From positions 22,113,597 through 22,177,596 of the forward strand of contig CM055901.1 of the NCBI GenBank assembly GCA_029582155.1: a stretch of DNA of 64,000 nt, given 5' to 3'. Shown in pieces: positions 21,601 to 52,874 of the stretch. Each line of letters opens with the position of its first letter. Position 1 is the stretch's first letter. The DNA is from Panopea generosa (Eukaryota > Mollusca > Bivalvia > Adapedonta > Hiatellidae). The notes beneath the pieces were generated by a model. The model searched no databases. It saw only the letters and a program-made list of their open reading frames with translations, and was not told where the DNA came from. The translations under genes and the position numbers were made by a program.

Positions 21601-24600
21601 CTCTTTTTCTTAAAGCTCAAGAGTAAAATCTGCAAGTATAGATGGCCTGAAAAAGTTAATGCTAAATGTACCATTTTTTCTTGGTTATGTGATAAAAAAA
21701 GATTTCACATTCGTGCTCATTTATAATAATGAATTCATTGACAAAATTGATATAATGCTCAGTGGAACCTTACATAACATATTTTTGAGTCCATCAACAA
21801 AGTTACACATACAAGCATTATTCTATCTGACTTACCACAAGGTTTACTTTATTTAAAATACATTTTAACTATGCTCACTGCGTGTCCATTACCAAGTTCA
21901 AACACATACATGTATTATGTATATCTGACCACATGGTTCACTAAAGATACATTTTAACTATGCTCACTGCGTGTCCATTACCAAGTTCAAACACATACAT
22001 GTATTATGTATATCTGACCACATTGTTCACCAAAGATACATTATAACTATGCTCACTACGTGTCCATTACCAAGTTCAAACACATACATGTATTATGTAT
22101 ATCTGACCACATTGCTCACCAAAGATACATTATAACTATGCTCACTGCGTGTCCATTACCAGGTTCAAACACATACATGTATTATGTATATCTGACCACA
22201 TGGTTCACCAAAGATACATTATAACTATGCTCACTGCGTGTCCATTACCAAGTTCAAACACATACATGTATTATGTATATCTGACCACATGGTTCACCAA
22301 AGATACATTATAACTGTGCTCACTGCGTGTCCATTACCAAGTTCAAACACATACATGTATTATGTATATCTGACCACATGGTTCACTAAAGATACATTTT
22401 AACTATGCTCAATGCCTGTCCATTACCAAGTTCAAACACATACATGTATTATGTATATCTGACCACATGGTTCACTAAAGATACATTATAACTATGCTCC
22501 CTGCATGTCCATTACCAATTTCAAACACATACATGTATTATGTATATCTGACCACATGGTTAACTAAAGATACATTATAACTGTGCTCACTGCCTGTCCA
22601 TTACCAAGTTCAAACACATACATGTATTATGTATATCTGACCACATGGGTAACTAAAGATACATTATAATTGTGCTCACTGCGTGTCCATTACTAAGTTC
22701 AAACACATACATGTATTATGTATATCTGACCACATGGTTCACTAAAGATACATTATAACTATGCTCACTGCGTGTCCATTACCAAGTTCAAACACATACA
22801 TGTATTATGTATATCTGACCACATTGTTCACTAAAGATACATTATAACTATGCTCACTGCCTGTCCATTACCAAGTTCAAACACATACATGTATTATGTA
22901 TATCTGACCACATTGTTCACTAAAGATACATTATAACAATGCTCACTGCGTGTCCATTACCAAGTTCAAACACATACATGTATTATGTATATCTGACCAC
23001 ATGGTTCACTTAAGATATATATTAACTATGCTCACTGCCTGTCCATTACCAAGTTCAAACACATACATGTATTATGTATATCTGACCACATTGTTCACTA
23101 AAGATACATAATAACTATGCTCACTGCATGTCCATTACCAAGTTCAAACACATACATGTATTATGTATATCTGACCACATGGGTAACTAAAGATACATTA
23201 TAACTGTGCTCACTGCGTGTCCATTACCAAGTTCGAACACATACATGTATTATGTATATCTGACCACATTGTTCACCAAAGATACATTATAACTATGCTC
23301 ACTGTGTGTCCATTACCAAGTTCAAACACATACATGTATTATGTATATCTGACCACATGGGTAACTAAAGATACATTATAACTGTGCTCACTGCGTGTCC
23401 ATTACCAAGTTCAAACACATACATGTATTATGTATATCTGACCACATTGTTCACTAAAGATACATTATAACTGTGCTCACTGCATGTCCATTACCAAGTT
23501 GAAACACATACATGTATTATGTATATCTGACCACATGGTTCACTAAAGATACATTTTAACTGTGTTCACTGCCTGTCCATTACCAAGTTCAAACACATAC
23601 ATATATTATGTATATCTGACCACATGGTTCACTAAAAATACATTATAACTGTGCTCACTGCGTGTCCATTACCAAGTTCAAACACATACATGTATTATGT
23701 ATATCTGACCACATGGTTCACTAAAGATACATTTTAACTATGTTCACTGCCTGTCCATTACCAAGTTCAAACACATACATGTATTATGTATATCTGACCA
23801 CATGGTTCACTAAAGATACATTTTAACTGTGCTCACTGCCTGTCCATTACCAAGTTCAAACACATACATGTATTATGAATATCTGACCACATGGTTCACT
23901 AAAGATACATTATAACTGTGCTCACTGCCTGTCCATTACCAAGTTCAAAAACATACATGTATTATGTATATCTGACCACATGGTTCACTAAAGATACATT
24001 ATAACTGTGCTCACTGCCTGTCCATTACCAAGTTCAAAAACATACATGTATTATGTATATCTGACCACATGGTTTACTAAAGATACATTTTAACTATGCT
24101 CACTGCGTGTCCATTACCAAGTTCAAACACATACATGTATTATGTATATCTGACCACATGGTTCACTAAAGATACATTTTAACTGTGCTCACTGCCTGTC
24201 CATTACCAAGTTCAAACACATACATGTATTATGTATATCTGACCACATGGTTCACTAAAGATACATTATAACTGTGTTCACTGCCTGTCCATTACCAAGT
24301 TCAAACACATACATGTATTATGTATATCTGACCACATGGTTCACTCAAGATACATTATAACTGTGCTCACTGCCTGTCCATTACCAAGTTCAAACACATA
24401 CACATATTATGTATATCTGACCACATTGTTCACCAAATACATTTTAACTATGCTCACTGTGTGTCCATTACCAAGTTCAAACACATACATGTATTATGTA
24501 TATCTGACCACATGGTTCACTAAAGATACATTATAACTGTGCTCACTGCCTGTCCATTACCAAGTTCAAAAACATACATGTTTTATGTATATCTGACCAC

Positions 24601-26239
24601 ATGGTTCACTAAAGATACATTATAACTGTGCTCACTGCCTGTCCATTACCAAGTTCAAAAACATACATGTATTATGTATATCTGACCACATGGTTTACTA
24701 AAGATACATTTTAACTATGCTCACTGCGTGTCCATTACCAAGTTCAAACACATACATGTATTATGTATATCTGACCACATGGTTCACTAAAGATACATTT
24801 TAACTGTGCTCACTGCCTGTCCATTACCAAGTTCAAACACATACATGTATTATGTATATCTGACCACATGGTTCACTAAAGATACATTATAACTGTGTTC
24901 ACTGCCTGTCCATTACCAAGTTCAAACACATACATATATTATGTATATCTGACCACATGGTTCACTAAAAATACATTATAACTGTGCTCACTGCGTGTCC
25001 ATTACCAAGTTCAAACACATACATGTATTATGTATATCTGACCACATGGTTCACTAAAGATACATTTTAACTATGCTCACTGCGTGTCCATTACCAAGTT
25101 CAAACACATACATGTATTATGTATATCTGACCACATGGTTCACTAAAGATACATTATAACTGTGCTCACTGCCTGTCCATTACCAAGTTCAAAAACATAC
25201 ATGTTTTATGTATATCTGACCACATGGTTCACTAAAGATACATTATAACTGTGCTCACTGCCTGTCCATTACCAAGTTCAAAAACATACATGTATTATGT
25301 ATATCTGACCACATGGTTCACTAAAGATACATTTTAACTATGCTTACTGCGTGTCCATTACCAAGTTCAAACACATACATGTATTATGTATATCTGACCA
25401 CATGGTTCACTAAAGATACATTTTAACTGTGCTCACTGCCTGTCCATTACCAAGTTCAAACACATACATGTATTATGTATATCTGACCACATGGTTCACT
25501 AAAGATACATTATAACTGTGTTCACTGCCTGTCCATTACCAAGTCCAAACACATACATGTATTATGTATATCTGACCACATGGTTCACTAAAGATACATT
25601 ATAACTGTGCTCACTGCCTGTCCATTACCAAGTTCAAACACATACACATATTATGTATATCTGACCACATTGTTCACCAAATACATTTTAACTATGCTCA
25701 CTGCGTGTCCATTACCAAGTTCAAACACATACATGTATTATGTATATCTGACCACATGGTTCACTAAAGATACATTTTAACTGTGCTCACTGCCTGTCCA
25801 TTACCAAGTTCAAACACATACATGTATTATGTATATCTGACCACATTGTTCACTAAAGATACATTATAACTGTGCTCACTGCCTGTCCATTACCAAGTTC
25901 AAACACATACATGTATTATGTATATCTGACCACATTGTTCACTAAAGATACATTATAACTGTGCTCACTGCCTGTCCATTACCAAGTTCAAACACATACA
26001 TGTATTATGTATATCTTACCACATGGTTCACTAAAGATACATTTTAAACGTGCCAGTCCATCAGAGAAGTTCTTCACATCCAATGTGAGTCCAATGATAT
26101 CGTCTTGGTCAACAATGTGCATTTCTCCATCATGTTCTAGGATACTCAGTGAGGTACTCTTGGCCATTCGTGGACTAGACGAAGGAGTTAGGTGCATTCC
26201 TCGTCACTCAACGCACTCCTAGAGCCACCGCCACTTTGT
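625..26239 (-). CDS. ARHGAP45: ARHGAP45/ARHGAP29/GMIP-like F-BAR Rho GTPase-activating protein, N-terminal part (12 exons; 3' end outside window)
   Basis: Twelve minus-strand exons, all with GT-AG borders, join into about 430 residues. Phases agree at every junction except the first (see the 26,041 exon). In order they give a helical N-terminal block (DDIIGLTLDVKNFSDGL, then LNTTELFSAAGTLIGNIK), an acidic linker, and an F-BAR domain from 'LLTAEQIDSVL' through 'AWSKYLKDVMSYIERRAQLE', 'PLTARRGEHDKVRKALKELW', 'KIDKRKKAEEDSWHK' and 'TTYKACVAEANYRQTELQKV' to 'VTIEYFQLLHTVSAPVPVQ'. This order matches the vertebrate ARHGAP45 (HMHA1)/ARHGAP29/GMIP family, with ARHGAP45 the closest by eye. The family has N-terminal F-BAR, a C1 zinc finger, then RhoGAP, and it inactivates Rho-type GTPases at membranes. 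C1 and RhoGAP are not seen and should lie left of base 1. The family is confident; which paralogue is less sure, since molluscs may have one ancestral gene. Confidence 0.9.
682..2499. other. Intron between RhoGAP exons K and L
   Basis: AT-rich; holds the 20-bp repeat and two related phrases, 'acttgtcctgacc' (2,090) and 'acttgtccgtacc' (2,272). No exon seen. Confidence 0.6.
1751..1860. repeat. 20-bp tandem repeat, about 5-6 copies
   Basis: Unit GCATGACCATACCCTAATCA; degenerate relatives continue to about 1,915. Confidence 0.9.
2500..2637 (-). CDS. ARHGAP45: ARHGAP45-like exon K (F-BAR, 46 codons)
   Basis: Acceptor CTGTACACAG, donor AAAACG|GTAAGG, phase 0. It encodes AAETETTYKACVAEANYRQT through SSIREQIYLSDTIIKT. 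'TTYKACVAEAN' is the family signature (TYRTCVADA in vertebrates). Confidence 0.94.
2998..4063. mobile_element. Degenerate pogo/Tigger-like element of about 1.07 kb
   Basis: The left end CAGTAAAACTTTACCTTATG and the right end, inverse CAGTAAAATCCCTCTAATAA, share 'CAGTAAAA' and end in GACCACC. TA precedes the left end. No transposase frame survives. Boundaries are inferred from the ends only. Confidence 0.5.
4123..4302 (-). CDS. ARHGAP45: ARHGAP45-like exon J (F-BAR coiled helices, 60 codons)
   Basis: Acceptor TTTACCAG, donor CACAAG|GTAAGA, phase 0. It begins QEAVSNFRKAQSMYITRQQE, continues through FEKARELSLKTESELS, and ends KIDKRKKAEEDSWHK. It is strongly charged with heptad-like spacing. It aligns with the 'QEAESNLRKAKQGY' to 'LDKRRRLEEEAKNK' region of ARHGAP45. 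Confidence 0.93.
4988..5205. mobile_element. TIR MITE with AATTGCTAGATTATC ends, copy 1
   Basis: Starts ATTAATTGCTAGATTATCAT and ends with the inverse form ATGATAATCATGCAATTAAT. The interior is A/T-rich homopolymer sequence. It shares ends and layout with 12,266-12,432. Confidence 0.5.
5357..5437 (-). CDS. ARHGAP45: ARHGAP45-like exon I (F-BAR, 27 codons)
   Basis: Acceptor CTTTTAG, donor AAAATG|GTTTGT, phase 0. It encodes PLTARRGEHDKVRKALKELW then NKEVKKM, matching 'PLTLRRLEHEKRRKEIKEAW'. The donor is weaker than its neighbours, but position and phase fit exactly. Confidence 0.9.
6003..6298 (+). mobile_element. tRNA-derived SINE (family A), plus copy
   Basis: A tRNA-like head has an A box (TGATTAGCTCAGTCTG) and a B box (GTTGTGAGTTTGAATCCC), and GCCGGGC pairs with GCCCGGC. 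The body runs to a tail ATGACGCTAAATATTCAATC with AATC repeats. Confidence 0.8.
6482..6768 (-). mobile_element. tRNA-derived SINE (family A), inverted copy
   Basis: Reads tail to head on the plus strand: GATTGATTGAATATTTAGTG ... GGGGATTCAAACTCACGACC ... CCGACTGAGCTAATCGGGCC. With the copy at 6,003-6,298 it forms an inverted pair about 180 bp apart. Confidence 0.8.
6819..6884 (-). CDS. ARHGAP45: ARHGAP45-like exon H (F-BAR, 22 codons)
   Basis: Acceptor CTGTAG, donor GTTGAA|GTAAGT, phase 0 at both ends. It encodes DVEYSKNCQATFTLLQTTKF then VE, matching 'DLEFGHSMVQAVGTLQTQTFMQ'. It lies about 50 bp beyond an inverted pair of SINEs. Confidence 0.9.
7355..7505 (+). mobile_element. tRNA-derived SINE (family C)
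   Basis: Head GGCGGTAGTCTAATAGATAG and B-box-like GGTTGCGATTTCAATCCC, then ACAATACTCAGTACTGCTTC and CCCAGGAAATGGACTC. The tail phrase matches the unit of the 30-bp minisatellite at 51.65 kb. Confidence 0.7.
9530..9683. repeat. Near-perfect 62-bp inverted repeat (hairpin)
   Basis: Left arm 9,530-9,592 and right arm 9,622-9,683 are reverse complements, with one extra T in the left arm and one T/C difference; the spacer is 29 bp. Both arms contain TTTTTTGTGGTTTT and AAAGAATGTCGAATCA. Two overlapping open frames (9,350-9,601 and 9,624-9,845) are by-products. Confidence 0.9.
10573..10805 (-). mobile_element. tRNA-derived SINE (family A), degraded copy
   Basis: Matches the inverted copy from ATTTGAATATTTAGTGTCAT through GGCTAACAGATGATCA to GGATTCAAACTAACGA. 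The A-box end is lost. Confidence 0.7.
10911..10955 (-). CDS. ARHGAP45: ARHGAP45-like exon G (F-BAR, 15 codons)
   Basis: A 45-bp exon with acceptor GTTTCAG and donor CCCAG|GTGAGT, phase 0 at both ends. It encodes GYLPLQSVYCTVLSQ, equivalent to 'MPLLSIYSLALEQ' in ARHGAP45. Confidence 0.88.
11075..11345 (-). mobile_element. tRNA-derived SINE (family B), degraded copy
   Basis: Plus-strand order GTGTTCAGTGCCACTTTCAA ... GACACATGGCATGTTGCCCA ... TTCTAGTACCATTTTTAAGC ... TTGGTATTACCCGGC mirrors the 61.5-kb copy. Confidence 0.7.
11478..11860. repeat. 44-bp-unit tandem repeat, about 9 copies
   Basis: Units read AATTGATCTTGATGTAAATT and ACAGTGACCATGACATTAAC. It lies within the intron between exons F and G. 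Confidence 0.9.
12266..12432. mobile_element. TIR MITE with AATTGCTAGATTATC ends, copy 2
   Basis: Starts TTTAATTGCTAGATTATCAT and ends GATAATTTAGCAATTAAT. It holds a long T run and a G run (about 12,393-12,407). Confidence 0.5.
13200..13440. repeat. Dispersed repeat ('ggggccataactc' family), copy 2
   Basis: Shares TGTCTGTCAACACAAAT, AAAGGGGCCTTAACTCC-like sequence, ATAGACCCCTTCAAAAG and GTGGCGGGCATAAAA with 46.4 kb. Confidence 0.65.
13496..13664. mobile_element. pogo/Tigger-like MITE
   Basis: Inverted ends CAGTTAAACCTGTGTAAAC and the inverse of TTAAGACAGGTTTGACTA, flanked by TA. Inside are the repeated phrases 'taagcagcc', typical of this MITE type. It lies 34 bp past exon F on the intron side. 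Confidence 0.65.
13698..13762 (-). CDS. ARHGAP45: ARHGAP45-like exon F (F-BAR)
   Basis: Acceptor CCTTACAG, donor GATGAG|GTAAGT, 65 bp. With the previous split codon it reads ELEYSKNLSRLASSVKPAL then TDE, matching 'LEMEFAKGLQKIA...' of ARHGAP45. Confidence 0.9.
14196..14343. mobile_element. piggyBac-like MITE, truncated copy 3
   Basis: From the central CTCGTAACGAGCAATCTGAA onward it matches the other two copies and ends AGTAAAGGG-TTAA at 14,344-14,347. The first third is missing. Confidence 0.7.
14648..14788 (-). CDS. ARHGAP45: ARHGAP45-like exon E (F-BAR start)
   Basis: Acceptor TTATTACAG, donor TTAG|GTTTGT, 141 bp with split codons at both ends. It encodes VLLTAEQIDSVLMNLQSGLE then TAFSRAKAWSKYLKDVMSYI and ERRAQL. 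This is the first long helix of the F-BAR domain; the pattern 'AEQ(I/V)D...L...GL..A...AK.W.KY.KD...Y.E+R' is typical of the family. Confidence 0.93.
15670..16215. repeat. Dispersed repeat with 'accacagatgtc' units, copy 1
   Basis: Three diverged sub-units hold ATATGTGCAACTAGACCTC, CTGATACTTCCC, AACCACAGATGTC and AACAAGAT; it ends GTGACAGACGGAAAGCACAA. A related block is at 20,220-20,580. Confidence 0.65.
16536..16672 (-). CDS. ARHGAP45: ARHGAP45-like exon D (acidic linker)
   Basis: Acceptor CATATCCAG, donor CCAG|GTGCGT, 137 bp. It encodes VSDYLMGDLQHGAVEEMK followed by a Ser/Asp/Glu-rich linker ending DEKEEP. 'SDYLMGDL' aligns with 'SEFLMGEV' of ARHGAP45. The linker is likely disordered and leads into the F-BAR domain. 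Confidence 0.88.
16795..16829. repeat. (GAAT)n microsatellite
   Basis: Uninterrupted TGAA/GAAT tetranucleotide run. Confidence 0.95.
18313..18400 (-). CDS. ARHGAP45: ARHGAP45-like exon C
   Basis: Acceptor ATTACAG, donor AAAAG|GTATGT, 88 bp with two split-codon bases at each end. It encodes YDYEGHSTASMEVAFSDAID then QLALEFSK. It corresponds to the segment 'FHYES...FEKALETIAVAFSSTVSEF' between the N-terminal block and the acidic linker in human ARHGAP45. Confidence 0.88.
20030..20173 (-). CDS. ARHGAP45: ARHGAP45-like exon B
   Basis: Acceptor GTTTCAG, donor A|GTGAGT. The 144 bp begin with two bases of a split codon, encode CDEDMRVLAHERLGDALC...LNTTELFSAAGTLIGNIK, and end with one base. The stretch 'HERLGDAL' through 'AAGTLI' is the most conserved part of the N-terminal block in the family. 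A second AG directly follows the acceptor (CAGAG); only the first gives a usable phase. Confidence 0.92.
20220..20580. repeat. Dispersed repeat with 'accacagatgtc' units, copy 2
   Basis: Shares CAACTAGACCTCTCACTGAT, TCTGACCACAGGTGTCAAAG and AGACAGATGGAAAGCACAAA with 15.7 kb. Confidence 0.65.
21865..26040. repeat. 89-bp-unit satellite array, about 47 copies
   Basis: Units read AACTATGCTCACTGCGTGTC ... CATACATGTATTATGTATAT ... TTCACTAAAGATACATTATA. Variant copies recur 623 bp (7 units) apart, for example TTTTATG at 24,581 and 25,204. It fills most of the intron between exons B and A and stops at the exon A border. Confidence 0.95.
26041..26239 (-). CDS. ARHGAP45: ARHGAP45-like exon A (first coding exon seen)
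   Basis: A pyrimidine-rich acceptor ending TTTGTACAG precedes base 26,239. The frame opens at the ATG at 26,197-26,195 (MHLTPSSSPRMAKS...) and runs 52 codons to ...FSDGLARLK. The second half matches the conserved N-terminal block of ARHGAP45. Two oddities. First, upstream of the ATG a different frame reads QSGGGSRSALSDEE before hitting TAA, as if one base were missing next to the ATG; alternatively the ATG is the true start. Second, the exon ends AAA T|GTATCT, and joining it to the next exon (AG TGT GAT) would make TAG. The weaker donor at C|GTTTAA keeps the frame open (GLA-Q-CDED). The exon abuts satellite DNA on both sides. Confidence 0.75.
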
Positions 26240-26269: not shown

Positions 26270-28827
26270 ACTGATAATCAGAATACCTGGTAGCCCCAAG
26301 TCACACATCAAGTTAATATGAAAATGATAATCATACATGACCCAAGTCGCATATCAAGCAAACATGAAAACGATAATCATACATGACCCAAGTCACACAT
26401 CAAGTAAGCATGAAAACCATTATCATACATGACTCAAGTCACACATTAAGCAAACATGAAAATGATAATCATACATGACCCAAGTCACACATCATGTCAA
26501 CATGAAAATGGTAATCATTCTAGACCCGAGTCACACACCAAGTAAATATGAAAATGATAATAATACATGACCCGAGTCACACATCAAGTAAACATGAAAA
26601 TGATAATAATACATGACCCAGGTCACACATCAAGTAAACATGAAAATGATAATCATACATGACCCAAGTCACACGTCAAGTAAATATGAAAATGATAATT
26701 ATACATGACCCAAGTCACACACCAAGCAAACATGAAAATTATAATAATACATGACCCAAGTCACACATCAAGTAAACATGAAAATGATAATAATACATGA
26801 CCCAAGTCACACATCAAGTAAACATGAAAATGATAATCATACATGACCCAGGTCACACATCAAGTAAACATGAAAATGATAATCATACATGACCCAAGTC
26901 ACACATCAAGTAAACATGAAAATGATAATCATACATGACCCAAGTCACACATCAAGTAAACATGAAAATGATAATCATACAGGACCCAAGTCACACATCA
27001 AGTAAATATGAAAATGATAATAATACATTACCCAAGTCACACATCAGGTAAACATGAAAATGATAATCATACATGACCCAAGTCACACATCAAGTAAACA
27101 TGAAAATGATAATCATACATGACCCAAGTCACACACAAAGCAAACATGAAAATGATAATAATACATGACCCAAGTCATACATCAAGTAAACATGTAAATG
27201 ATAATCATACATGACCCAAGTCACACATCAAGTAAATATGAAAATGATAATCATACATGACCCAAGTCACACACCAAGCAAACATGAAAATGATAATAAT
27301 GCATGACCCAGGTCACACATCAAGTTAACATGAAAATGATAATCATACATGACCCAAGTCACACATCAAGTAAGCATGAAAATGATAATCAAACATGACC
27401 CAAGCCTAACATCGAGTAAATATGAAAATGATAACCATACATGACCCAGGTCACACATCAAGTAAACATGAAAATCATAATAATACATGACCCAAGTCAT
27501 ACATCAAGTAAACATGGAAATGAAAATCATACATGACCCAAGTCAAACATCAAGTAAATATGAAAATGATAATCATACATGACCCAAGTCACATATCAAG
27601 AAAATATGAAAATGATAATCATACATGACCCAAGTCACACATCAAGCAAACATGAAAATGATAATCATACATGACCCAAGTCACATATCAAGAAAATATG
27701 AAAATGATAATCATACATGACCCAAGTCACACACCAAGCAAACATGAAAATAATAATAATACATGACCCAGGTCACACATCAAGCAAACATGAAAATGAT
27801 AATCATACATGACCAAAGTCACACACCAAGCAAACATGAAAACAATAATCATACATGACCTAGGTCACACATCAAGTAAACATGAAAATGATAATTATAC
27901 ATGACCCAAGTCACACATCAAGTAAACATGAAAATGATAATCATACATGGCCCGGGTCACACATCAAGTAAACATGAAAATGATAATCACACATGACCCA
28001 AGTCACACACCAAGCAAACATGAAAACAATAATCATACATGACCTAGGTCACACATCAAGTAAACATGAAAATGATAATCATACATGACCCAAGTCACAC
28101 ATCAAGTAAAAATGAAAATGATAATCATACATGGCCCAGGTCACACATCAAGCAAACATGAAGATGATAATCATACATGACCCAAGTCACACATCAAGTT
28201 AACATGAAAATGATAATCATACATGACCCAAGTCATACATCAAGTAAGCATGAAAATGATAATCAAACATGACCCAAGCCTAACATCAAGTAAATATGAA
28301 AATGATAACCATACATGACCCAGGTCACACATCAAGTAAATATGAAAATCATAATAATTAAGGATGTCAACGAATATTCGGATATTCGAATATTCGGTCA
28401 TACGTCCGAATATTCGAATGTCATATTGATATTCGAATATTCGCAACAAAAAAAAAATATTAAAAAAATATAGTCAATTCAAGTTGTTTTCTTTTTTTAT
28501 TTTCAATTTCAATATTTTTGCCACAAATGGTTTCGAAAGGTGTTATATCAACCAGGTTAAGACACGGTAATTATCGATTTCCTCCAAAGACGGGTGTCAA
28601 TTGGACTTGTCAAGGTGATAAGGAGTCCTGATCGGTAATCCTTTAATTGTTTGCCTTCGGCAATTTTAATTATCGATCTGCCTTTACGGTCCGTTGTAAA
28701 TCACCCTGTTTTGAAAAGGTGAGAGCAAGTTTGTTTATTTATACCTAATTGAAGAGCACACTTCTTTGATTTGAAGGCCGTTTATGTACTTGTGAATAAT
28801 GAATGCGCTAAGTAGTAGACGAATTTA

Positions 28828-28869
<42 letters not shown>

Positions 28870-31085
28870 TTGTTGTTTTTTTTTGTTTTTCTATTTCATT
28901 TATAAATAGTTAATTACTTATAAACTATACAAACATACAAACATTTAACCTAGTAAAGCTAATATAACATAGCATTTATTAATTTATTATTATTAATTAT
29001 GTATCATCGAGTTCCACGTCATGTTGAATCTTGACGACAATGATATTCCAATTGTTTGCTTTTTACTTTTTTAGTATTTATACATCAGCACCGTTTCCGC
29101 TGAAAGAGAAAGTAACAAATATGGCGAGTAAAAACGTTCGAGATAGAAAGTTGATGATTATTTATTTTTAAGATCTTGACCGAATATATTCGAATATTCG
29201 TTCGAAAGAATGACCGAATATTCGAATATCAATATTGCCATTCGTTGCCATCCTTAATAATAATACATGACCCAAGTCATACATCAAGTAAACATGGAAA
29301 TGAAAATCATACATGACCCAAGTCACACATCAAGTAAATATGAAAATGATAATCATACATGACCCAAGTCACATATCAAGAAAATATGAAAATGATAATC
29401 ATACATGACCCAAGTCACACACCAAGCAAACATGAAAATGATAATAATACATGACCCAGGTCACACATCAAGCAAACATGAAAATGATAATCATACATGA
29501 CCAAAGTCACACACCAAGCAAACATGAAAACAATAATCATACATGACCCAAGTCACACATCAAGTAAACATGAAAATGATAATTATACATGACCCAAGTC
29601 ACACGTCAAGTAAACATGAAAATGATAATCATACATGGCCCAGGTCACACATCAAGTAAACATGAAAATGATAATCATACATGACCCAAGTCACACACCA
29701 AACTAACATGAAAACAATAATCATACATGACCTAGGTCACACATCAAGTAAACATGAAAATGATAATTATACATGACCCAAGTCACACATCAAGTAAACA
29801 TGAAAATGATAATCATACATGGCCCAGGTCACACATCAAGTAAACATGAAGATGATAATCATACATGACCCAAGTCACACATCAAGTAAACATGAAAATG
29901 ATAATCATACATGACCCAAGTCACACATCAAGTAAGCATGAAAATGATAATCGTACATAGCCCAAGTCACACACCAAGCAAACATGAAAATGATAATAAT
30001 ACATGACCCAAGTCATACATCAAGTTAACATGAAAATGATAATCATACATGACCCAAGTCACACATCAAGTAAGCATGAAAATGATAATCAAACATGACC
30101 CAAGCCTAACATCAAGTAAATATGAAAATGATAATCATACATGACCCAGGTCACACATCAAGTAAACATGAAAATCATAATAATACATGACCCAAGTCAC
30201 ACATCAAGTAAACATGGAAATGATAATCATACATGACCCAAGTCACACATCAAGTAAATATGAAAATGATAATCATACATGACCCAAGTCACATATCAAG
30301 AAAATATGAAAATGATAATCATACATGACCCAAGTCACACACCAAGCAAACATGAAAATGATAATAATACATGACCCAGGTCACACATCAAGCAAACATG
30401 AAAATGATAATCATACATGACCAAAGTCACACACCAAGCAAACATGAAAACAATAATCATACATGACCTAGGTCACACATCAAGTAAACATGAAAATGAT
30501 AATTATACATGACCCAAGTCACACATCAAGTAAACATGAAAATGATAATCATACATGGCCCGGGTCACACATCAAGTAAACATGAAAATGATAATCATAC
30601 ATGACCCAAGTCACACACCAAGCAAACATGAAAACAATAATCATACATGACCTAGGTCACACATCAAGTAAACATGAAAATGATAATCATACATGACTCA
30701 AGTCACACATCAAGTAAACATGAAAATGATAATCATACATGGCCCAGGTCACACATCAAGTAAACATGAAGATGATAATCTTACATGACCCAAGTCACAC
30801 ATCAAGTAAACATGAAAATGATAATCATACATGACCCAAGTCACACATCAAGTAAGCATGAAAATGATAATCATACATAGCCCAAGTCACACATCAAATA
30901 AACATGAAAAATATAATCAAACATGACCCAAGTCACACATCAAGTAAACATGAAAACTATAATCATTCATGACCTGAGTCACACATCAAGCAAACATTAA
31001 AACAATAATCACACATGACCCAAGTCACACATCAAGTAAACATGAAAATGATAATCATACATGACCTAAGTCACATATCAACATA
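26270..31085. repeat. 46-bp-unit satellite array, about 84 copies, interrupted by a hAT-like element
   Basis: Units read TCATACATGACCCAAGTCAC and ACATCAAGTAAACATGAAAA. The marker CAAGCCTAAC occurs at 27,401, 28,275 and 30,101; the spacings are 874 (19 units) and 920 (20 units, after removing the 906-bp insertion and duplicated target). It starts about 30 bp upstream of exon A's acceptor. Confidence 0.95.
28359..29256. mobile_element. hAT-like non-autonomous DNA transposon (898 bp) with 8-bp target duplication
   Basis: Ends are TAAGGATGTCAACGAAT... and the inverse ...ATTCGTTGCCATCCTTA, with several CGAATATTCG motifs in the termini. It is flanked by ATAATAAT at 28,351-28,358 and 29,257-29,264. 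The element has no coding capacity. Inside are A/T runs and a (TA)n tract near 28,830-28,866. It interrupts a copy of the 46-bp satellite; uninterrupted copies exist at 27,477 and 30,177. An 8-bp duplication is typical of hAT elements. Confidence 0.85.
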
Positions 31086-31989: not shown

Positions 31990-33480
31990 TTTAATTAAGG
32001 AATCATTTCATACTCAATTCAGATCGGGGAAAACTTTGTTTATTTTATCAAGGCATTATGGCAAACTTCTATTTACAATTATTGAAGCTTTCAATTGGTA
32101 ATTTTTAAAAAAATATACTATTTGCAATTGGGAATATGACCCAATAACGACTATAAAAATGGATGAAAAAAAAACAACACTGAGACTATTTTAAATGTAG
32201 TGTTGGAGTAAGACAAGGAGAAAACGTTAATTTGGTTCATGGCATAAATTGCAATAAACATGAATTTGTTAATTCGGTTGTGGTCTTTGTCAAACTGTTC
32301 ATACTACTTTATGCTGATGACACTGTCATAGTGTCACGAGTACGCAGATGACCTTCAGAATGCTTTAAATACAAATGAAACATGTTGCAATATATGGAAA
32401 TTGACTAGCAATACTATGAAAACAAAAATAGTTATATTTAGCAGTGGTAGGCAAAGAAATTGTAACTTTGCATATAAAATCAAAAATATTGAAATTGTCA
32501 AAGATTACAAGTACCTTGGTATTTTGTCCAGCAGAAGTTGTTCTTTTCCAACAGCCAAAAAGCATATATCCGATAAAGAAAAAACAGCAATGTATTGCTT
32601 GATAAAAAGGTATTTTTATTTACCCCTTGACTTACAAATATTATTGTTTATCATAACTGTTCACGGATGTGAAATATGGGGTTATGGTAATATTGATATT
32701 ATTGAAAAGGTTCAATTGAAGTTTTTGAAATATATATTAAATCTGAAATCAAGAACATCAGACTGTATGGTATATGGAGAAACTGGTGTCAAACCCATCT
32801 CTGTTGACATAGAAACAGGAATGATTTCTTTTTGGTCTAAACTAGTTATCCCACAACAGCAAAAACTTACAAGTACGTTATAATGGTATATATCTTAGCC
32901 ATTTTAACTATATCAATCACATTCCTAGCACCCATTTTATGTGGATAAAAAATATGAAAAATATACTTATTAAACACGGTCTGAATAATGTTTGGGAATA
33001 TCTGGATTTTCCTTACCATAAGTGGCTTAATGCTACTATCAAACAGAAGTTGGCGCTGATCTATTTTTGAATGACTGGTATTCAGATGTACAAAATTCAA
33101 GCAAATGCAAAATCTAAAGACCATCTAAACATAATTTTGAAAAATATTTGATAACAACACCCACAAACATGTTATAAAGTTTAGAACACGTAATCACAGA
33201 TTGCCTGTTGAAACTGGCTGTTGGTTCGGTACCGAACTACATATGCCTAAATGTCCATTGTGCATTTCTAGTGTTTGTGATTAATATCGTTATTTATTTG
33301 AATGTCAATACTTCTGCTCCAGTAGAAAACGTCTTTTAAGAGAAATATACTAAATTCGACACAATATTAATAACTTTGATAAAGTAATGACAAAAAAACA
33401 AACATTATAGAATACAGAAAATTGTGCCAATTTATTAAAGAAATCCTTGCACAATTTAATTGATATTGGACTTATTATTG
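31990..33480 (+). pseudogene. Degraded non-LTR retrotransposon (LINE) reverse transcriptase
   Basis: Pieces of a reverse transcriptase appear in order on the plus strand: HYGKLLFTII, CSVGVRQGEN, LLYADDTVIV (YADD catalytic motif at 32,310-32,321), then after a one-base shift DDLQNALN...KTKIVIFSSG and a 160-codon open frame (32,401-32,883). That frame holds YKYLGIL, LFIITVHGCEIWGYGNIDII and CMVYGETGVKPISV. A C-terminal piece with CPLCISS and YLFECQYF follows near 33,200-33,330. Stops and frameshifts show it is dead. The style is jockey/RTE-like. A possible 3' end of the same element, with AATAAACTATTGAAACG, lies at 34,800-34,900 after an inserted repeat. Confidence 0.85.
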
Positions 33481-46899: not shown

Positions 46900-47165
46900 T
46901 CAGCTAACAACTTCCCAGGGTTTTCTTGGTCGCGGTAGTTGGCACGGAGATGGCTCTTCATTGGTTGGTTCTATATTTAAGTCTTCTGTGTCCGGAAGTT
47001 TAATACCATTTTGTATCATGTAAATAAGCTCGGCAAAGTTAGCTGGATGTTTACCAACATTGTCACTAGATTGATTATCTGTTTCTGTTGTTACACACTT
47101 CCTCACACTGGGGTCACTGTTTTCAGATGCAGCAGATAAATCCTGCTGCAAATCTTCATTTGTAT
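46900..47165 (-). CDS. PEX39: PEX39-like exon 3 (KPWE motif and stop)
   Basis: Acceptor TTTTTTCTTCAG|ATACAAATG with a strong pyrimidine tract. It encodes a Ser/Asp/Thr-rich linker, then FAELIYMIQNGIKLPDTEDL, then CQLPRPRKPWEVVS and TGA. KPWE is shared by PEX39 and PEX13-type proteins. A poly(A) signal follows 69 bp past the stop. Confidence 0.88.
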
Positions 47166-50100
47166 CTGAAGAAAAAAATATATCAAAGTCTGATAGAGAT
47201 TTATTATAAAAAAAACAACAACAACAACATGATCATTCAGAACATTAACATGGCTTCAAACATTATGGGACATACTTAACATCTCACACAACAATAATTT
47301 TGTGCTCTTCTACATATAGAGAAATGCTCTTCTGGATACACTGGACACATTACCAATGGTTCTAAAAGTGCTTGTTTCCAAAGACAGTCCTCTGTTTGAT
47401 CTAATTATGCAGAATTTTTTTTTTTAAACAATTCAGTCCATTTGTTGCAGTCTATCATTATGCATCTTTAACCCTTTACTTCATATTGACACCTTTGGAC
47501 ACCTCAAATATAGAAGGCTTTTGAATTATTGGGTGAATTATATTTATATTAACTGACAGAGTGGAAAACAGTGCAGGAAGTGTTCAGATTGCTCGTTACG
47601 AGCAATCTGAACTCTTTCTACACTGTTTTCAATGGCCTTTTTGATTGTTGCGGGAAAATGCATATCTATGGAGTAAAGGGTTAAACTGTTAAAGCTTCAT
47701 CAAACAGTTACCAATGTCATCCAAACTTGGCAGAAATCATGAAAATTGCCCAACCGCTTTACACAGCAATAATTTCTTGGGTGTAAGAATCTTGATACCA
47801 TTATGTAAGGGAGGTAATTCTTAAGTGAGACCTTAAAGGTATACATATTGTAGAAAACAGAATAAGTCATTTAAAATGTTGACCAAATTTTATTTGTTAT
47901 TTCCAGTATAAATAATTTTAACAATTATGTACCTTTGTTTTAGAGCCATAAATAGGGTAGTGTAAGAAATTAAAAATATGTCTCAAAATATAGTATTGTG
48001 CTATCACTATTTTTTCTAGATTCAATTCTATTTTTTTTAAACTTAGTTTTATATTGATTTGTTTAGGTATGAGCAATATTTTACCAACACAAGAAGGAAG
48101 TTCTGATAGCAACAGGTTGAAATTTGAAAAATTGGCAATTGTACAATGAATAGTTTTTGTTGAAAATATCAAAGAACAGAAAATATATATTACATGTTTA
48201 CCTGTATAGCTAACAACCTTATCATTGTTATTTAACCACTGCATGTACCCTGTCAGGTTAACATCTTCGATCTCCCTGTAAACAGATGTGTTTGACTGTA
48301 TTGGAGAACTATTTAAAGCAAAAACTCTCTGTAAACAGATGTGTATGATTGTACAGGAGACCTTTTTAATGCAAAATTTCTCTGCAAAAAACTCTCTGTA
48401 AACAGATGTGTATGATTGTATAGGAGAACTTTTTATTGCAAAAACTTTCCACAAAAACTCTCTGTAAACAGATGTCTGTGATTGCATAGGAGAACTATTT
48501 AAAGCAAAATCTCCCTGTAAACAGACGTGTGTGATTGTATAGGAGAACTATTTAAAGCAAAATCTCCTTGTAAACAAACGTGTATGATTAAATAGGAGAA
48601 CTATTTAAAGCAAAAACTCTCTGTTAACAGATGTGTGTGATTGTATAGGAGAACTTTTTAAAGCAAAAACTCTCTGTAAACAGATGTGTGTGATTGTATA
48701 GGAGAACTATTATAAGCAAAAACTCTCTGTAAACAGATGTGTGTGATTGTATAGGAGAACTATTTAAAGCAAAATCTCCCTGTAAACAGATGTGTGTGAT
48801 TGTATAGGAGAACTATTTAAAGCAAAGACTTCCTGTAAACAGATGTGTGTGATTGTATAGGAGAACTATTTAAAGCAAAAACTCCCTGTAAACAGATGTG
48901 TGTGATTGTACAGGGGAACTATTTAAAGCAAAATCTCCCTGTAGACAGATGTGTGTGACTGTATAGGAGAACTATTTAAAGCAAAAACTCTCTGTAAACA
49001 GATGTGTGTAGTTGTATTGGAGAACTATTTAAAGCAAAAGCTCTCTGTAAACAGATGTGTGTGATTGTATAGGAGAACTTTTTAAAGCAAAAACTCTCTG
49101 TAAACAGGTGTGTGTGATTGTATATGAGAACTATTTAAAGCAAAAGAGAACTATTTAAAACAAAATCTCCCTGTAGACAGATGTGTGTGATTGTAAAGGG
49201 AACTATTTAAAGCAAAAACTCCCTGTAAACAGATGTGTGTGATTGTATAGGAGAACTATTTAAAGCAAAATGTCTCTGTAAACAGATGTGTGTGATTGTA
49301 TAGGAGAACTTTTTAAAGCAAAAACTCTCTGTAAACAGATGTGTGTGATTGTATAGGAGACATGTGTGATTGTATAGGAGAACTATTTAAAGCAAAATCT
49401 CCCTGTAAACAGATGTGTGTGAATGTACTGAAGAACTATTTAAGCAAAATCTCCCTGTAAACAGATGTGTATGATTGTATAAGAGAACTATTTCAAGCAA
49501 AAACTCTCTGTAAAGCAAAAACTCTCTGTAAACAGATGTGTGTGATTGTATAGGAGAACTACTTAAAGCAAAAATTCTCTGAAAACAGATGTGTGTGATT
49601 GTATAGGAGAACTACTTAAAGCAAAAACTCTCTGTAAACAGGTGTGTGTGTGATTGTATACGAGAACTACTTAAAGCAAAAACTCTCTGTAAACAGATGT
49701 GTGTGATTGTATAGGAGAACAATTTAAAGCAAAAACTCTCTGTAAACAGATGTGTGTGATTGTATACGAGAACTACTTAAAGCAAAAACTCTCTGTAAAC
49801 AGGTGTGTGTGTGTGATTGTATACAAGAACTACTTAAAGCAAAAACTCTCTGTAAACAGATGTGTGTGATTGTATAGGAGAACTACTTAAAGCAAAATCT
49901 CCCTGTAAACAGATGTGTGTGATTGTATAGGAGAACTATTTAAAGCAAAGACTTCCTGTAAACAGATGTGTGTGATTGTATAGGAGAACTATTTAAAGCA
50001 AAAACTCCCTGTAAACAGATGTGTGTGATTGTACAGGGGAACTATTTAAAGCAAAATCTCCCTGTAGACAGATGTGTGTGACTGTATAGGAGAACTATTT

Positions 50101-51550
50101 AAAGCAAAAACTCTCTGTAAACAGATGTGTGTAGTTGTATTGGAGAACTATTTAAAGCAAAAGCTCTCTGTAAACAGATGTGTGTGATTGTATAGGAGAA
50201 CTTTTTAAAGCAAAAACTCTCTGTAAACAGGTGTGTGTGATTGTATATGAGAACTATTTAAAGCAAAAGAGAACTATTTAAAACAAAATCTCCCTGTAGA
50301 CAGATGTGTGTGATTGTAAAGGGAACTATTTAAAGCAAAAACTCCCTGTAAACAGATGTGTGTGATTGTATAGGAGAACTATTTAAAGCAAAATGTCTCT
50401 GTAAACAGATGTGTGTGATTGTATAGGAGAACTTTTTAAAGCAAAAACTCTCTGTAAACAGATGTGTGTGATTGTATAGGAGACATGTGTGATTGTATAG
50501 GAGAACTATTTAAAGCAAAATCTCCCTGTAAACAGATGTGTGTGAATGTACTGAAGAACTATTTAAGCAAAATCTCCCTGTAAACAGATGTGTATGATTG
50601 TATAAGAGAACTATTTCAAGCAAAAACTCTCTGTAAAGCAAAAACTCTCTGTAAACAGATGTGTGTGATTGTATAGGAGAACTACTTAAAGCAAAAATTC
50701 TCTGAAAACAGATGTGTGTGATTGTATAGGAGAACTACTTAAAGCAAAAACTCTCTGTAAACAGGTGTGTGTGTGATTGTATACGAGAACTACTTAAAGC
50801 AAAAACTCTCTGTAAACAGATGTGTGTGATTGTATAGGAGAACAATTTAAAGCAAAAACTCTCTGTAAACAGATGTGTGTGATTGTATACGAGAACTACT
50901 TAAAGCAAAAACTCTCTGTAAACAGGTGTGTGTGTGATTGTATACAAGAACTACTTAAAGCAAAAACTCTCTGTAAACAGATGTGTGTGATTGTATAGGA
51001 GAACTACTTAAAGCAAAAACTCTCTGTAAACAGATGTGTGTGATTGTATACGAGAACTACTTAAAGCAAAAACTCTCTGTAAACAGATGTGTGTGTGATT
51101 GTATACGAGAACTACTTAAAGCAAAAACTCTCTGTAAACAGATGTGTGTGATTGTATAGGGGAACTATTAAAAGCAAAAACTCTCTGTAAACAGATGTGT
51201 GTGATTGTATAGGAGAACTATTTAAAGCAAAAGCTCTCTGTAAACAGATGTGTATGATTGTATAGGAGATTTTTTTAATGCAAAAACTCCCTGTAAACAA
51301 ATGTGAATGATTGTATAGTGTGTGTAAAAAAATAACAATATAAATATATATATGTAAATTATAGGGTAACTAAACCATACCTTGAATAGAAGAAAACCTG
51401 AGCCTTTATCAATGATTCATAAATTTTATCTTGTGGAATAACATGCTGAACTTTCTTCCAGCCCTCCACAAATTTGGTGTTATCTTGAAACTTGTAGGCA
51501 AAAAGTCTGTCATACAATTCCATACTTGACCCACTGCCAGTTTCCTCCAC
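46900..51550 (-). CDS. PEX39: PEX39/C6orf226-like peroxisomal protein with PEX14-like helical domain and KPWE motif (three coding exons)
   Basis: Exons 51,381-51,550, 48,202-48,275 and 46,900-47,165 join in frame (splits TCA AG|G and ACA G|AT). They give about 160 residues from the first internal Met (MELYDRLFAYKFQDNTKF). The N-terminal half resembles the PEX14 N-terminal helix bundle seen in fungal KPWE proteins ('LYDRL..Y.F......F..GW', '..FYSR', 'LTGYMQWL'). The C-terminal half has FAELIYMIQNGIKLPDTEDL, a short acidic spacer, and PRPRKPWE three residues before the stop. This layout matches human C6orf226, recently named PEX39, which helps import PTS2-type cargo into peroxisomes. The human protein lacks the first domain, to my knowledge. 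The 5' end is unresolved: an upstream exon may add residues before VEETGSGSS. Confidence 0.8.
47472..47680. mobile_element. piggyBac-like MITE, copy 1
   Basis: A 209-bp element bounded by TTAA (47,468-47,471 and 47,681-47,684). Inverted ends are CCCTTTACTTCATA and the inverse of TATGGAGTAAAGGG. At the centre is a near-perfect palindrome, TTCAGATTGCTCGTTACGAGCAATCTGAA. TTAA targets and CCC-starting ends point to piggyBac. Confidence 0.8.
48202..48275 (-). CDS. PEX39: PEX39-like exon 2
   Basis: A 74-bp exon encoding EIEDVNLTGYMQWLNNNDKV then VSYT, with donor ATACAG|GTAAAC. Its acceptor CTGTTTACAG|GGAGAT lies at the very edge of the 61-bp satellite and is repeated in the satellite units. The split codon with exon 1 restores Arg (FFYSR-EIED). 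Confidence 0.85.
48276..51330. repeat. 61-bp-unit satellite array filling the PEX39-like intron
   Basis: Units read AACTCTCTGTAAACAGATGT ... GATTGTATAGGAGAACTATT. Two segments of about 1.12 kb (from about 48,770 and 49,890) repeat at an exact offset of 1,123 bp, shown by markers at 48,822/49,945, 49,361/50,484 and 49,581/50,704. The minus-strand frames at 47,918-48,487 and 51,112-51,300 arise from it. Confidence 0.95.
51381..51550 (-). CDS. PEX39: PEX39-like exon 1 (PEX14-like helical domain)
   Basis: Acceptor ATGTTACAG at 51,551, donor TCAAG|GTATGG. It encodes VEETGSGSSMELYDRLFAYK, then FQDNTKFVEGWKKVQHVI and ESLIKAQVFFYSR. It could be the first coding exon, with its own ATG before ELYDRLF, or be preceded by another. 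An unspliced start ATG TTA CAG also exists just upstream. Confidence 0.8.
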
Positions 51551-51650: not shown

Positions 51651-52870
51651 CTCAAAAACAACTCTCAGTACTGTTTCTACCTAGGAAACAACTCTCATTA
51701 CTGTTTCTGCCTAGGAAACAACTTTCAGTACTGTTTCTACCTAGGAAACAACACTCAGTACTGGCTCTACCTAGGAAACAACACTCAGTACTGGCTTTAA
51801 CTAGGAAACAACACTCAGTACTGGCTCTACCTAGGATACAACACTCAGTACTGGCTCTACCTAGGAAACAACACTCAGTACTGTCTTTACCTAGGAAACA
51901 ACACTCAGTACTGGCTCTACCTAGGATACAACACTCAGTTCTGGCTCTACCTAGGATACAACACTCAGTACTGGCTCTACCTAGGAAACAACACTCAGTA
52001 CTGTTTCTACCTAGGAAACAACACTCAGTACTGGCTCTACTTAGGAAACAACACTCTGTACTGGCTCTTCCTATGAAACAACACTCAGTAATGGCTCTAC
52101 CTAAGAAACAACACTCAGTACTGACTCTACCTATGAAACAACACTCATTACTGGCTCTACCTAGTATACAACACACAGTATTGGCTCTACCTAGGAAACA
52201 ACACTCTGTACTGGCTCTTCCTATGAAACAACACTCAGTACTGGCTCTACCTAGGAAACAACACTCAGTACTGACTCTACCTATGAAACAACACTCATTA
52301 CTGGCTCTACCTAGTATACAACACACAGTATTGGCTCTACCTAGGAAACAACACTCAGTACTGACTCTACCTACGAAACAACACTCATTACTGGCTCTAC
52401 CTAGTATACAACACACAGTATTGGCTCTACCTAGGAAACAACTCTTAGTACTGGCTTTTTACCTAGGAAATGACACTCAGTTCTGGCTCTACCTAGGATA
52501 CAACACTCAGTCCTCGCTCTACTTAGGAAACAACACTCAGTACTTGCTCTGCCTAGGAAACAATACTCAGTACTGGCTCTACATATGAAACAACACTCAG
52601 TACTGGCTCAACCTAGGATACAACACTCAGTACTGGCTTTACCTAGGAAACAACACTCTGTACTGGCTCTACCTTGAAAACAACACTCAGTACAGGCTCT
52701 GCTTGGGAAACAACACTCATTACTGGCTCTGCATAGGAAACAATACTCAGTACTGGCTCTACATATGAAACAACACTCAGTACTGGCTATACCTAGGATA
52801 CAACACTCAGTACTGGCTCTAACTAGGTAATAACACTCAGTGCTGATCCTACCTTGGAAACAACACTCAG
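51651..52870. repeat. 30-bp minisatellite, about 40 copies
   Basis: Units read CTAGGAAACAACACTCAGTA and CTGGCTCTAC. Because 30 is a multiple of 3, long frames appear on both strands (314 codons plus, 254 codons minus) with repeating LPRKQHSVLA and STECCFLGRA. I do not consider them genes. It starts in a family-C SINE remnant at 51,610-51,650. Confidence 0.93.
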
Positions 52871-52874
52871 TCCC

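Follow-up and report, generated by a model that had tools for sequence, protein, structure and literature searches.

An intron of Panopea generosa occupied by near-copies of its own 3′ splice site in a PEX39-like gene

How does splicing find the correct acceptor when an intron consists largely of near-copies of that acceptor? The question is raised by a PEX39-like gene on the minus strand of a 64,000-nt window of the Panopea generosa genome (assembly GCA_029582155.1, contig CM055901.1, positions 22,113,597 to 22,177,596; the window is this whole stretch, and positions below are counted from its first letter). There, the acceptor of the exon that we call exon 2 is preceded by 54 spare acceptors, or decoys, arranged in a tandem array (Table 1). 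We consider it probable that this array is a minisatellite derived from the splice junction itself, a so-called mirage, and that the intron is passively spliced at its last acceptor through exon pairing.

The acceptor array and its gene

The acceptor block occurs in 55 copies, that is, the 54 decoys plus the authentic site at 48276, and it reads CTGTTTACAG in 46 of them. Successive copies lie 53 bp apart in 37 of the 54 intervals and 52-57 or 66-74 bp apart in the rest. A preliminary description of the locus had counted about 50 copies in an array starting at the junction and filling nearly the whole intron, and this is borne out: the array spans ~51318-48276, and of the 3,105 bp of intron just ~62, next to the donor of the upstream exon, are free of it. 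The 61-bp unit length given there was wrong and is replaced by the measured spacing. The same description had each unit carrying the exon 2 acceptor followed by AGAGTT or by GGAGAT, the first six bases of the exon. The six bases that follow are AGAGTT in 28/55 copies, GGAGAT in 13/55 (the real exon and 12 of the 54 decoys) and something else in 14/55; over positions -13 to +6, 6/54 decoys are identical to the authentic acceptor. YAG is retained in 53/54 decoys; the decoy at 48568, one of the 12 sharing GGAGAT, carries CAA instead of CAG and is thus without AG.

Across 35 distinct aligned units, the 53-nt consensus accumulates 121 mismatches, and 33 distinct 60-mers are found among the 54 decoys. 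Within the array, positions 50936-49887 (1,050 bp) are identical to 49813-48764. Such an exact repeat reflects either recent exchange or an assembly duplication; in this one assembly it suggests that exchange within the array may be recent. An 18-bp partial duplication at 50631 and 49508 creates TTTGCTTTACAG, which gives the top-scoring acceptor-like sites of the intron. The dinucleotide after the acceptor is AG in 35/55 copies, GG in 18/55 and GA in 2/55; with GT directly after the AG in none of the 55, recursive (ratchet) splice sites were rejected. The 1.47-Gb genome, which is bigger than the lancelet genome, was searched with a two-unit query (106 nt), and all of its 27 matches (27/27) fell in this array. 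Derivation of the unit from a transposon or other dispersed repeat was consequently rejected, within a search that passes over very common words.

The gene itself was read as three minus-strand exons encoding a protein of 160 residues (MELYDRLF...RKPWEVVS); exon 2 joins both neighbours in frame to give an intact 160-aa open reading frame (ORF). Its KPWE domain, with the motif KPWE, matches PF17733 (KPWE_dom; E = 1.8e-13, 50.7 bits against a cut-off of 27). The (R/K)PWE motif is described as the most conserved feature of PEX39, ending its conserved domain, which is called DUF5572 (PMC12339391) and which we assume to be PF17733. By this motif criterion, since the KPWE motif here also ends the domain, the gene is PEX39-like, as the preliminary description had named it; binding of PEX7 and promotion of PTS2 import would be predicted. 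Beyond the gene's own exons the best genome matches had E = 2.9 and 7.5, with no second copy among them, and the gene is therefore taken as single copy in the assembly. A structure search (E up to 1) returned no solved-structure relatives of the protein. The exon upstream of the array had been presented as the first exon, but because its 5′ end is acceptor-like it is probably internal. Upstream of it lies a 30-bp x 40 array (51656-52871), many units of which read TTTCCTAG followed by GTAGAG, acceptor-like and donor-like at once; the flanks of that array bear no likeness to its 30-bp unit.

What would the use of a decoy mean for the protein? When the upstream exon was joined to each of the 54 decoy positions, 48 gave a stop after 5-6 codons (48568, which has no AG, is included among them), four gave a stop after 24-46 codons, and two, 48396 and 48462, stayed open and in frame as far as exon 2 and would lengthen the protein by 40 and 62 residues. 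Most decoys would thus be poison if used, as had been proposed, although the claim of a stop within five codons for every unit does not extend to these six. The statement that the spliceosome must pick the last site also holds, in that the 160-aa protein needs the last of the 55 acceptors. With the exon 2 donor, only the three nearest decoys yield exons of up to 260 nt: 48329 gives a 127-nt exon with a frameshift and stop, and 48396 and 48462 give in-frame exons of 194 and 260 nt.

Splice-site strength and the choice of the last acceptor

The units were scored, as had been suggested, with a small own-genome model built on splice sites read by eye: 17 acceptors (14 from chaperonin exons of this genome, 3 from the window) and 16 donors (13 and 3 from these two sources). 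The exon 2 acceptor scored -0.7, under all 17 other acceptors when each was left out in turn, and the decoys had a median of -3.3, so that the sites are weak in this model; nine of the 54 decoys equalled or outscored the real acceptor. On the donor side, the best of the 188 GTs in the intron reached 3.9, and the exon 2 donor 10.5 (9.5 when left out of the model). Fifteen of the 16 donors scored at least 5.9; the sixteenth, AGG/GTATTC, is the least certain reading (1.5). Because the best intron GT is below 15/16 donors, and above only the doubtful one, the model makes it unlikely that a decoy would form an exon of its own.

Exon 2 is flanked by introns of 3,105 and 1,036 bp. Among human 3′ splice sites of equal strength, an upstream bias is reported under intron definition, which weakens if both introns are long; exon definition favours the sites nearest across the exon (PMC9225289). 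We propose that the last acceptor would be used through recognition of exon 2 across the exon with its own donor. The decoys, being weak as acceptors and lacking a good intronic donor after them, would be passed over; only the three nearest would compete, so that some splicing would be expected to leak to the frameshifted product or to those extended by 40 or 62 residues, without serving a dedicated regulatory role. Such leakage is plausible by analogy, because one-unit retention is seen in human ABCA7. Concealment of the decoys by RNA structure was rejected: the segment 48480-48190 folds hardly better than shuffled sequences (z = -1.26; 25/200 as good or better).

Origin of the array and its neighbours

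Two of the features that identify mirages were found here. Tandem units hold the AG plus six exon bases in register, and the reading frame and the KPWE domain indicate that the terminal junction is the authentic one. A duplicated junction fits because the unit is locus-specific, stands in register with the junction and carries GGAGAT in 12/54 decoys. In the sequence of events that we favour, a ~53-bp segment straddling the junction, with ~46 nt from the 3′ end of the intron and ~7 nt from the start of exon 2, would have been tandemly duplicated, and the array would then have been enlarged and homogenised by unequal exchange. As the protein can be made only from the copy that adjoins the coding exon, every extra copy would become intron, and the intron may have grown from perhaps ~115 bp to 3.1 kb.

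Two further arrays within the 264 kb that we read span a splice junction, both at donors. An 89-bp unit, present in 47 copies, combines the terminal ~28 nt of an ARHGAP29/45-like exon with the donor that follows, and 47/47 of its genome matches lie at its own locus. The decoy donors read GTCAGA in 46/46 cases, with C at +3 where the real donor has A, and +3 is the sole intron column up to +46 with zero agreement to the real copy (38 decoys compared). They are weakened in score, 4.9 vs 9.5 for the real donor. A second, 46-bp array lies upstream of this exon. A degenerate 46-bp unit (26280-26245) ends ~5 nt short of the inferred acceptor AG (26241-26240), excluding the AG, and 0/200 shuffles were as good; the edge of the 46-bp array resembles the sequence just ahead of the exon's acceptor.

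The third junction array, outside the window, repeats a RhoBTB-like exon end. Each of its 20 copies combines the exon part ending in SDVTFIVEG with the donor, which reads GTTAGA in 15/20 copies including the real one, and all 20 genome matches (20/20) of the 70-bp unit fall at this locus. The repeated part is coding, because the next exon carries the protein on with KDVYAHKCVLVAR (SDVTFIVEG-KDVYAHK). Here the decoys mostly share the hexamer of the real donor, itself weak at 6.5. The two donor arrays agree less well with the splicing picture drawn above, and a rule by which decoys must be damaged is not supported by the model scores: the ARHGAP-like decoys are weakened and the RhoBTB-like ones mostly intact. 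The putative name rests on recognition of BTB by eye and on a Ras match (PF00071, E = 6.1e-11) in a same-strand exon 4 kb upstream; a structure search of the exon (E up to 0.1) gave no solved-structure relatives. The Pfam BTB match in the region (E = 1.1e-5) belongs to a second RhoBTB-like gene on the opposite strand, part of which lies at ~162480-162940 relative to the window, minus strand, with a 31-bp array starting ~18 nt after its donor. Arrays starting 18 and ~30 nt after two other donors were not counted as junction-spanning. The RhoBTB-like gene also holds a 71-bp array, at 123955-125093 relative to the window, that was considered and dropped: its supposed exon lacked a convincing acceptor, and the neighbouring exons are presumably joined directly, by the layout of the RhoBTB family. 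Elsewhere in the window, a plus-strand ORF of 183 aa (32332-32883) resembles, by eye, part of a reverse-transcriptase element, with no Pfam match better than E 0.07.

How common are such arrays? The 264 kb, 5 kb of which are N, contain 70 tandem arrays; those with a period of at least 15 and at least three copies total 56.7 kb, small overlaps included, and the genome is minisatellite-rich, at least in this region. Three of the 15 boundaries in the three genes scored 58-138 (58 for the PEX39-like acceptor) and the other 12 scored 14-26. Given 70 arrays, the chance of three at junctions is P 0.0014 for 15 boundaries and 0.11 for 80, so that a regional excess is not significant unless boundaries are few. 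The two sister arrays close by point to a DNA-level process, not one peculiar to the PEX39-like gene, and since they contain exon ends in open frames they make it likely, by analogy, that the junction came first.

Several observations weigh against the proposed origin and splicing. Among 168 further AGs of the intron, eighteen match or outscore the real acceptor, the top ones being 50631 and 49508 at 12.1; together with the nine decoys noted above they imply that, in the model, strength by itself does not select the real acceptor. One such AG, at 48296, lies just 20 nt before it. The doubtful donor AGG/GTATTC ranks under several GTs of the array, and the model is small, all of its sites being by-eye readings. 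In the human data as reported, 3′ sites lean upstream overall, and exon definition only lessens the lean for equal-strength pairs (PMC9225289). The exon share of the unit, 6-7 nt, is too short to prove direction. As a control, 24 exons of chaperonin (CCT) genes were examined at 48 hidden Markov model match ends, which approximate junctions, and 0/48 were accepted as junction-spanning arrays. One of these ends (L055) scored 56, almost as much as the PEX39-like acceptor (58), and was left out of the count because inspection showed a repeat within the intron, spaced by ~190 bp (about 373-591), that begins ~25 nt after a chaperonin donor.

The small exon share would also fit a different order of events, in which an older intronic minisatellite expanded as far as the exon, whose ancestral acceptor was then superseded by the final AG of the repeat. 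We regard such a capture as unlikely, given a unit unmatched elsewhere in the genome and two sister arrays that both contain open-frame exon ends. The preliminary description had further proposed a function, a reservoir of poison acceptors; on this account decoy use is regulated, the frameshifted mRNA decays, and PEX39 dose is tuned by array length. The early stops at 48 of the 54 decoys and the nearly complete retention of YAG agree with it, as does the acceptor block, which with 13 of the 121 mismatches is among the least variable stretches (column permutation 0.017; the 13-nt window with fewest mismatches, 12, sits one nt upstream), and the ABCA7 junction array is reported to alter splicing with its length (PMC5954066). 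Variants confined to single decoys are not clearly depleted in the block, however (3/19, in 10/34 columns examined), so that the column test was not upheld and there is no clear sign of selection on the decoy acceptors. Weak acceptors, an intron with no GT above 3.9, under 15/16 donors, and the in-frame, open outcome of two of the three nearest decoys tell against regulated use, and lancelet mirages reportedly leave splicing undisturbed (PMC3087553, PMC3902484). With this balance we think a poison reservoir improbable. It is very improbable that the array is an assembly artefact, collapsed or duplicated so that the true copy number is far different: the exact 1,050-bp duplication speaks for it, but 33 distinct 60-mers among 54 decoys make it implausible that the whole array was invented, and tandem arrays abound in the 264 kb.

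Ahead of a single used acceptor, 54 near-copies would offer a natural test of exon pairing vs site strength vs first-come scanning in acceptor choice. Together with the two donor-side arrays, the locus suggests that mirages are not restricted to lancelets and that amplification of its terminal sequence can make an intron longer. A wider proposal is possible but doubtful to us, namely that splice junctions recurrently seed minisatellites in this genome, that junction duplication is a main route of intron growth, and that cross-exon pairing sets which decoys stay intact. If it were true, arrays of tens of near-identical sites would be natural experiments on splice-site choice, with the ARHGAP-like array (46/46 C at +3) as the damaged-decoy case and the PEX39-like and RhoBTB-like arrays as the intact ones.

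Table 1. Coordinates of the PEX39-like locus and of the sister arrays (window positions unless stated)
Feature	Position	Strand	Details or basis
Last coding exon, KPWE domain	46900..47165	-	Terminates RKPWEVVS-stop; PF17733
Exon 2, 74 nt	48202..48275	-	Starts GGAGATC; donor CAG/GTAAAC at 48201
Intron, 3,105 bp, almost entirely tandem array	48276..51380	-	Sequence
53-bp minisatellite, 54 decoy acceptors and the real one	48276..51318	-	Sequence; consensus unit AGAGTTTTTGCTTTAAATAGTTCTCCTATACAATCACACACATCTGTTTACAG
Decoys near enough to share the exon 2 donor: 48329, 48396, 48462	48329..48462	-	Computed exon lengths
Region with exact 1,050-bp direct duplication inside the array	48764..50936	-	Shift 1,123 bp
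Coding exon upstream of the array, probably internal	51381..51549	-	In-frame ORF; ATG 51523-51521; donor AAG/GTATGG; acceptor-like TTACAG just before 51549
89 bp x 47 array, real donor and 46 decoys	21854..26047	-	Repeats ~28 nt of exon end with the donor; authentic donor GTAAGA at 26019
Open frame, ARHGAP29/45-like exon; its 3′ end is the seed of the 89-bp array	26020..26203	-	PF24235, E = 0.0023, 18.6 bits, below the curated cut-off of 27.7
46 bp x ~103 array upstream of the ARHGAP29/45-like exon	26295..31081	-	Tandem-array detection
70 bp x 20 array spanning the RhoBTB-like donor	contig 22234314-22235725 (~120718-122129 relative to the window)		Exon inside BTB domain, recognised by eye

Comparison with known junction arrays

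Mirages have been described in the lancelet genes Adh3, the globins BflGb6 and BflGb9, TnC and PGBD5 as minisatellite-like tandem duplications over an intron-exon boundary, in which many units carry AG/GT signals and regular splicing is undisturbed (PMC3087553, PMC3902484). The PEX39-like array shares this organisation and, like BflGb6, is of the 3′-splice-site type, combining the 3′ end of the intron with the 5′ part of the exon. It differs in that the BflGb6 units are reported to be 150-160 bp long and to number 6 or 3, as against 55 copies of mostly 53 bp with 6-7 nt of exon, and in that the Panopea array is known from genomic sequence alone. In human ABCA7, the intron-18 variable number tandem repeat is described as having ~12 to 427 units, with a 25-bp unit that begins with the donor GT (PMC5954066). 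It resembles our array in that a repeat at the exon edge bears a splice site in each unit and that using the site one unit on causes a frameshift; it lies on the donor side, however, and splicing effects have been measured there. In duplicated human genes, internal tandem repeats located where exons meet introns, on average four units of 30 bp (PMC2812944), likewise show minisatellite growth at exon edges changing introns, but these were found between paralogues, and an alternative transcript accompanies many of them. A literature search on molluscs returned no papers, and among those listed in a search that took in bivalves none was a bivalve junction array by title or abstract. By this comparison, the PEX39-like array is of the same kind as the lancelet mirages, and ABCA7 is a human donor-side analogue. 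Within the literature searched, what is new is the scale, with 55 acceptors, a genome exceeding that of the lancelet, and the presence of three such arrays in 264 kb.

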